Source: Spartobacteria bacterium (GTDB lineage Bacteria; Verrucomicrobiota; Verrucomicrobiia; Chthoniobacterales; UBA6821). Taken from it: a DNA stretch of 33,762 nucleotides. The translations under genes and the position numbers were made by a program. Position 1 is the first letter of the stretch. Every line of letters begins with the position of its first letter. This document shows, piece after piece, positions 7,907-33,762 of the stretch. The stretch is taken from the NCBI GenBank assembly GCA_947482345.1, contig CANKJN010000017.1, positions 1 to 33,762 of the forward strand, written 5' to 3'. A model generated the notes under the pieces. The model was not told the DNA's origin. It saw only the letters and a list, made by a program, of their open reading frames with translations, and searched no databases.

Positions 7907-7915
7907 CACTTGCTA

Positions 7916-8193
7916 AGGAAGCGCTGATCAAATCCCATGAAGGTCACTGAAGAGCATTTGCTGATTTTTGAAGGCGCGAGCGCTGGGCGATACCCGCAGC
8001 GGTCTCGCCCGAGCGAGCAACGCCGCAAAAATCGACAAATGGTTTCAGCCCTACGGGTTGCGGAGATAACCGGCCGGGGGCTGTGTTGGCTTGGCGCTTA
8101 GAGCCCTCTGCGGGGATGCTCGCGCCAAGCCGCCTTGCCTGTGCGGCCAATTCTTTCCGCTACGGCCTCAATGAGATTTAATCAGCTGTTCCC
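7916..8193. mobile_element. MITE-like element, copy 1 (278 bp), flanked by TA at 7914-7915 and 8194-8195
   Basis: Terminal inverted repeats AGGAAGCGCTGATCAAATC and (right end, reverse complement) GGGAACAGCTGATTAAATC. Colinear and highly similar over its length to 15529..15804. Contains a perfect 10-bp stem GGCTTGGCGC/GCGCCAAGCC. Confidence 0.8.
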
Positions 8194-8656
8194 TAGGTTC
8201 TCACTGACCTAGTGACAGCGCCCCCTCCCTCAACCCGGCGGGAGACCTGTGTCGTTGGGAGCGGGCATCCCACTCCGGATCACTCCCATCGCATAATGAT
8301 GAATGTGCAGGCAGGGGATATGAAGCTTTGATTGCACGTGATAGTGCTGCTGCAATGGACCGCGTTCGTCGTCGGGTACCGCGAATCCGTGGAACTGCCA
8401 ATGATATTGGTCCGCGGAACAGTTGCCCAGATGAACAAAACCTACCAACGGGTTCACCCCCGCCGGAAAGTTGATGCGAAAAGAGTGGATAGGATCTTCG
8501 ACCATCTCCACTCTTATTCCGGTAGAAGTAGCTGGTTCTTTCGGCGATGGGCGTTGTTATCATCACTTGTATCTTCAGACAAAAGGGGATTCCAGCCCTT
8601 GTAACCCCATGCACCCCCTGGTGGATCTTTGCCGGAAAACAGTCTAAAACGTCTCC

Positions 8657-15404: not shown

Positions 15405-15528
15405 GTATGTTGGTTTGTGGTTGGACTGACGATGTCGTGATTAGGCGATCAGGGAAAAGGTGTCAACGGAAAATGTACGCATTTTTTCGCGTGATGCAGG
15501 GGATCTTAAGAGATAAGCGGACTGCTTA

Positions 15529-15804
15529 GGGAAGCGCTGATTAAATCCCATGAAGGCCGCTGAAGAGCATTTGCTGATTTTTGAAGGCGCGAGTGCTGGG
15601 CGATACCCGCAGCGGTCTCACCCGAGCGAGCAACGCCACAAAAATCGAAAAATGGCTTCAGCCCTTTGGGTTGCGGGGATAACAGGCCGGGGGCTGCGTT
15701 GGCTTGGCACTTACAGCCCACTGCGGGGATGCTCGTGCCAAGCCGCCTTGCCCGCGGCCCATTCTTCCCGCAACGGCCTCTATGCGATTTAATCAGCGCT
15801 TCCT
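15529..15804. mobile_element. MITE-like element, copy 2 (276 bp), flanked by TA at 15527-15528 and 15805-15806
   Basis: Terminal inverted repeats GGGAAGCGCTGATTAAATC and (right end, reverse complement) AGGAAGCGCTGATTAAATC, 18/19 identical. Colinear with 7916..8193. Confidence 0.85.
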
Positions 15805-15901
15805 TAGTGGTGGCAGGCGACAAGAGCGGCGCGCAAACATGGCAGGTTTCCAACATTCTCCCTTGAAGAGCCCGGGCGAACTGCTACTCTTCGCGACCAG
15901 C

Positions 15902-30520: not shown

Positions 30521-30556
30521 CCGTAACGGCTGCGAAGCAACGGCCGGGCCAGCCAA
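30521..30556 (+). repeat. Inverted repeat, left arm
   Basis: CCGTAACGGCTGCGAAGCAACGGCCGGGCCAGCCAA; matches the reverse complement of 33561..33596 at 34/36 positions. Confidence 0.88.
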
Positions 30557-33560: not shown

Positions 33561-33596
33561 TTGGCTAGCCCGGCCGTCGCTTCGCAGCCGTTACGG
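33561..33596 (-). repeat. Inverted repeat, right arm
   Basis: TTGGCTAGCCCGGCCGTCGCTTCGCAGCCGTTACGG; inverted partner of 30521..30556, adjacent to the transposase 3' end. Confidence 0.88.
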
Positions 33597-33607
33597 ATCC
33601 CTGTGCC

Positions 33608-33762
33608 TCAGGGCCTGTTAAGATAAAGGAGCGCATCGAAGATGAAGGCGATGTGGATGAAGGCGGTGAACATCACGTCGAGTTTTTCAAAGCGTGAGAA
33701 GATGCGGCGGAAGGCCTTGAGTCGACGGAACAGTCGCTCAACCTCATTACGCTTCTTGTAAA
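33608..33762 (-). CDS. IS5-like transposase, C-terminal end only (continues past the right edge)
   Basis: Minus-strand translation YKKRNEVERLFRRLKAFRRIFSRFEKLDVMFTAFIHIAFIFDALLYLNRP then TGA (33610..33608); matches the RNxVERxFxxLKxFRR pattern of IS5-type DDE transposases. Confidence 0.85.
   Translation of the reverse strand, partial: YKKRNEVERLFRRLKAFRRIFSRFEKLDVMFTAFIHIAFIFDALLYLNRP

Follow-up and report, generated by a model that had tools for sequence, protein, structure and literature searches.

The window, 33,762 nucleotides of Spartobacteria bacterium DNA (Chthoniobacterales, Verrucomicrobiota) taken at its full length, holds two copies of a repeat whose stems differ by apparently compensatory base changes. 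The earlier note had read two covarying pairs as a sign of selection on folding, as RNA or single-stranded DNA, and had suggested a structured RNA, a hairpin substrate or a regulatory module rather than plain debris; it did not name the element as a transposase-mobilised MITE. The locus raises the question of what the repeat is, whether its pairing is maintained, and in which nucleic acid.

Structure of the two copies

Both repeats are copies of a non-autonomous IS5-type MITE without genes. Each starts with GGAAGCGCTGAT(T/C)AAATC and carries an inverted copy of this start at the far end. The parts are as follows.

7917..8192, plus strand: MITE copy 1, 276 bp, more decayed; flanks CTAA (7913-7916) and CTAG (8193-8196)
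8057..8163, plus strand: hairpin arm 2 of copy 1, which the earlier note covered
8088..8131, plus strand: stem 1 with its loop in copy 1; covariation strongly supported
15530..15803, plus strand: MITE copy 2, 274 bp; duplicated target TTAG at 15526-15529 and 15804-15807
15530..15558, plus strand: left terminal inverted repeat (terminal stem) of copy 2; core GGAAGCGCTGATTAAATC at 15530-15547
15559..15662, minus strand: hairpin arm 1 of copy 2, homologous to arm 2 and inverted; the minus strand holds the conserved arm motif
15670..15774, plus strand: hairpin arm 2 of copy 2, containing stems 1 and 2
15701..15744, plus strand: stem 1 with its loop in copy 2; covariation strongly supported
15775..15803, minus strand: right terminal inverted repeat (terminal stem) of copy 2

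The motif of arm 2 reads CTGCGTT-stem-TTACA-tip-GGATGC-stem-CGCCTTGC. The sequences and coordinates previously given for stems 1 and 2 in both copies are correct, and stem 2 of copy 1 has in addition a T/T mismatch at 8059/8161 that had gone unmentioned. Comparison of folding energies against shuffled sequences yielded z values of -6.3 and -9.1 for the two window copies, with none of 200 shuffles equal. Between copy 1 and copy 2, 13 pairs differ: 2 are compensatory, 9 are unpaired only in copy 1 and 2 only in copy 2. Two copies alone are insufficient to establish selection on folding.

Mobility and a candidate IS5-family partner

In the genome of the window, about 45 places match copy 2 by BLAST, and the terminal repeat occurs 185 times at up to 3 mismatches (0 for the reversed control). 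The relatives that carry copies are Spartobacteria/Chthoniobacterales of the Verrucomicrobiota, all metagenome-assembled. YTAR tetramers flank both window copies (CTAA/CTAG and TTAG/TTAG). Identical 4-bp flanks were found in 36 of 80 genus elements bounded by terminal inverted repeats, and 34 of these 36 have the form YTAR, which is the target of IS5 (PMC10359306). When the flanks of copy 2 are joined without the element, they align end to end or nearly so with six sister genomes; five have a single TTAG at this empty site, and the sixth, also without the element, reads TTAA. The same test on copy 1 found no orthologue of its flanks in the genus sample.

A sister species carries a 1.23-kb element (L135) with the ends GGAAACGCTGATTTAATC ... 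GCTTTAATCAGCGGTTCC and TTAA flanks, which codes for a 325-aa IS5-family transposase (NF033581, E 1.7e-102) between ends matching the MITE. Decayed relatives with matching ends are present in two further genomes. The search of the draft genome of the window found no intact partner IS; its four PF01609 matches and a PF05598 fragment (at C10) lack matching ends and were rejected as the partner. The element belongs with the IS5-family MITEs by its terminal inverted repeats, common with an autonomous IS5-family element (of the sister species, not of its own genome), its YTAR duplication and its empty site. The matching ends suggest that the MITE is mobilised in trans by an IS5-family DDE transposase. 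Searches of plasmids and phages found no copy 2 element, two other element types were absent from plasmids, and viral contigs gave 0 matches to two strict arm patterns.

Among the 80 genus elements, 51 are 273-276 bp long and 4 are arm-less copies of 45-54 bp, a ratio biased because sampling began from the long form. Since the arm-less copies exist, the arms are not strictly required for movement. Single-arm forms bounded by terminal repeats were also observed (L178 in G065, and L076 at G000:C15:31466-31661, 196 bp), which indicates that one arm can be lost. Variants of 313-454 bp in the genome of the window (L066-L075, L080, L081) contain extra sequence in the arms, at least partly hairpin-forming, as if short modules had been added.

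Covariation within the genus

An alignment of 54 distinct full-length copies from the genus, with 77-100% identity to copy 2, was used to score about 37,000 column pairs by a G-test with average-product correction. The top three pairs, 181/206, 180/207 and 177/210, all lie in stem 1 and have E values of 0.02, 0.02 and 0.17 against a null in which substitutions are re-placed randomly on the tree. Only these three reach E < 0.2 under this all-pairs phylogenetic null; the remaining stems rest on pooled tests. The change from G-C (8096/8123) in copy 1 to A-T (15709/15736) in copy 2, claimed earlier as covariation in stem 1, falls at element positions 180/207 and ranks second of all pairs, with G-C in 31 copies, A-T in 22 and A.C in 1. 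Stem 1 occurs as TTGGCAC, TTCGCGG, TTGGCGC, TTCGCGC, TTTGCGC and other variants, and the partner side nearly always matches.

The second claimed change, A-T (8064/8156) to G-C (15677/15767) in stem 2, fared less well. At the corresponding positions 148/238, A.C is the commonest state in the genus (20 copies), followed by A-T (15), C-G (10), G-C (3) and others (6), leaving the pair unpaired in about half of the copies. However, relatives keep the pair: each of the 13 copies from another family of the order has T-A.

For the 101 pairs of a strand-neutral structure, compensatory changes number about 24 on internal branches and about 17 on tip branches, compared with random expectations of 1.1 and 3.3 (200 runs; maximum 5 and 10). 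Structures slid by 1-3 columns yield 0-4 compensatory changes per class. A constraint on folding is strongly supported by these data; the larger alignment upholds what had been suggested from two pairs.

A double hairpin conserved across Verrucomicrobiota

The interior of the element consists of two inverted homologous hairpins of about 105 nt each. Another family of the same order (f5) has the same 274-bp plan and a homologous interior with a different terminal repeat (AGTGTACCGTCTCCTAAAT or AGTGTCCTGTCCCCTAAAT). A covariance model with automatic structure (R1) performed poorly and was set aside. The arm-2 covariance model, built from the genus and f5 copies, matches 49 of 197 genomes of the order and 15 of 387 genomes in a phylum sample confined to Verrucomicrobiota, the 15 including the genome of the window and one sister. 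Its matches are full length, with E values, rough for this model, down to 1e-12 outside the order. In many elements the arm-2 model independently picks up arm 1 where it is expected, on the other strand; therefore, the two hairpins of the interior are homologous and inverted relative to each other. A clear terminal inverted repeat is present in 20 of the 23 elements examined, distant ones being identified as the best flanking inverted repeat; these 20 measure 256-285 bp, with about ten distinct sequences at their ends. In one complete genome of the phylum, the search for a partner with the same terminal repeat found a single element copy only and no transposase partner.

Thirty-one arms were aligned with MAFFT on sequence only, and RNAalifold predicted a structure of 20 pairs, 19 of which show changes on both sides. 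Of the cells, 90.0% are paired, compared with 65.0% after shuffling; the covariation score of 0.659 compares with 0.203, and none of 500 shuffles reaches either value. Slid structures score 0.10-0.15, a comparison that favours the predicted structure, as it was derived from the same alignment. A measure that does not rely on the RNAalifold structure is the complementarity between the outer 24 bases on either side, which is 78% when both sides come from one arm, 45% when they come from different genera and 35% after shuffling. The covarying stems are separated by near-invariant motifs that are unpaired or weakly paired, namely GCGTT (5' side), ATGC (behind the tip) and CGCCTTG (3' side). Across Verrucomicrobiota, compensatory changes have preserved the pairing of the stems, while unrelated terminal repeats have replaced one another. 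Covariation is thus present both in the genus and in the phylum-wide arms, and together they strongly support the earlier suggestion that the element is not plain debris.

Loss and maintenance of pairing

Changes in pairing were placed by parsimony on a tree of the repeat copies, which ignores recombination between them. On internal branches the arms show 25 breaks against 20 compensations and 33 restorations, whereas on tip branches 155 breaks stand against about 6 compensations and 26 restorations. The terminal stem has no such surplus, with 12 breaks, 3 compensations and 5 restorations on internal branches. Therefore, by this parsimony, copies lose pairing after landing, and only the lineages still multiplying keep it. 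Changes from Watson-Crick pairs to G.T and to A.C are about equal (52 versus 59 on tips, 8 versus 10 on internal branches), and hence give no sign of selection on one RNA strand.

Proposed mechanism and alternative explanations

We propose as the probable reading an IS5-type MITE with a conserved double-hairpin cassette, the hairpins of which act as folded DNA during spread. In this reading, a DDE transposase supplied in trans would cut at the GGAAGCGCTGATTAAATC ends and insert the element at YTAR sites. The two ends are equivalent units of terminal repeat plus hairpin, with one hairpin behind each end. The hairpins may function as DNA when replication or transposition leaves the element single-stranded or extruded, either aiding the processing of the two ends or serving recognition by a structure-specific factor. 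As the arm motif lies on opposite strands, each end presents the same unit, which a single-stranded RNA would not need. Folding as single-stranded DNA, one of the options offered earlier, is the reading that fits best, and DNA folding during spread is favoured over a host RNA gene. More tentatively, the double hairpin may be a phylum-wide DNA cassette, a mobile unit that borrows the terminal repeats of unrelated transposases and whose unpaired motifs (GCTGCGTT / CGCCTTGC, GGTYACA / ATGC) are recognised by a structure-specific factor promoting spread; we consider this extension possible but doubtful.

The pairing might also be kept without any selection on folding, if hairpin template switching, or mismatch repair acting from one side of an arm to the other, mechanically restores complementarity in a manner comparable to quasipalindrome correction. 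Both sides often change on one branch with no visible intermediate, and symmetric G.T and A.C errors are expected of a copying process; restoration coupled to transposition would also yield the contrast between tips and internal branches. However, restoration at a constant rate predicts more compensations on the longer tips, whereas in the arms about 20 fall on internal branches, which have a total length of 0.87, and about 6 on tips, which have a total length of 2.14. Mechanical restoration alone also leaves the conserved unpaired motifs and the near-constant length across the phylum unexplained, and we regard it as unlikely. A structured RNA, made from one strand and working in trans or on adjacent messages, is less likely still. 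The strong covariation and the conserved internal-loop sequences look RNA-like, and transcripts of NEMIS and related MITEs have been proposed to affect adjacent mRNAs (PMC2229807). Against this, G.U is not in excess of A.C, the inverted arms put the motif on both strands, pairing is lost after insertion, and gene orientation shows no preference. An Rfam search at gathering scores found no match to the element, only tRNA and a group II intron piece elsewhere in L191, and otherwise weak chance matches. None of the signals examined supports the proposal of a structured RNA or regulatory module. Strand energy was tried as a further RNA cue and rejected: the minus strand is lower in 58 of 61 copies in one genus and the plus strand in 13 of 16 in another family, a reversal that makes the bias uninformative.

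Copy 1 lies 10 bp past the stop codon of a XylR-like regulator gene, as might suit a module beneficial to the host, e.g. a bidirectional terminator kept at its sites. However, the 28 copies in the same genome include 3 in convergent, 10 in tandem and 5 in divergent positions and 9 inside an ORF call, copies decay, and the site of copy 2 is empty in sister species, i.e. there is no conserved orthologous insertion there. We consider such a host function very improbable.

Comparison with known systems

The element resembles bacterial IS5-family MITEs in its terminal inverted repeats, YTAR duplication, non-coding nature, dispersed copies and an autonomous relative with the same ends. However, instead of a deleted IS its interior is a covarying double hairpin, which it shares with elements that have unrelated ends. 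Similar to the Caulobacter CIR repeats (PMC2229807), it has two hairpin arms with a linker and a fold conserved between genera. CIR are distinguished by a GANTC motif and by arms without an end-to-end stem (PMC2229807), whereas the element here has paired ends, a target duplication and arms that are inverted homologues; no GANTC loop motif was seen in copy 2 when read by eye. Correia/NEMIS, ERIC and RPE are likewise small mobile repeats whose strands fold strongly, but they are described as a stem loop from pairing of the 5' and 3' ends, without two conserved arms (PMC2229807).

REP/REPIN sequences with RAYT transposases are also conserved DNA hairpins spread in trans (PMC3733652). REPs are palindromes of 20-40 bp with a GTAG/CGTC tag and a neighbouring RAYT gene, whereas the element here measures 256-285 bp and has DDE-type ends and a target duplication, so that size and architecture place it outside this group. 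Integron attC sites combine little sequence conservation with a conserved single-strand fold (PMC2727003). Unlike with these, no cassette array was seen for the element. The outer boxes of attC are RYYYAAC ... GTTRRRY; the arm base, GTTGCG ... CGCAAC as read by eye, has the opposite order, which argues against attC membership. A search of the open-access literature found no description of the element.

The interior of a MITE is usually regarded as filler; in this element it is the interior that is conserved and the ends that can be exchanged. This gives a direct route to asking why only some MITEs amplify, and raises the question whether folded DNA takes part in DDE transposition. The covariation is strong and of the kind by which structured RNAs are recognised, a warning that covariation screens for new bacterial RNAs can catch mobile DNA.

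Additional repeats in the window and flanks of the elements

A 36-bp hairpin module (CCGTAACGGCTGCGAAGCAACGGCCGGGC...) occurs in the window as two inverted copies (30521-30556 and 33561-33596), and a near-identical version sits in the stem-1 loop of 307-bp variants of the element (L028-L030). Positions 33590-33762 resemble the end of another IS5-like element (GGGCCTGTTAAGATAAAGG...), and a 129-nt direct repeat with 79% identity is found at 1017-1145 and 1479-1607. Elsewhere, three elements (L105 1409-1677, L108 1471-1744 and L079 213-257) lie at the centre of inverted flanks, of 12 bp in L079 and roughly 30-60 bp in L105 and L108, and would form the loop of another hairpin. Possible readings are a target preference for palindrome centres or nested elements.
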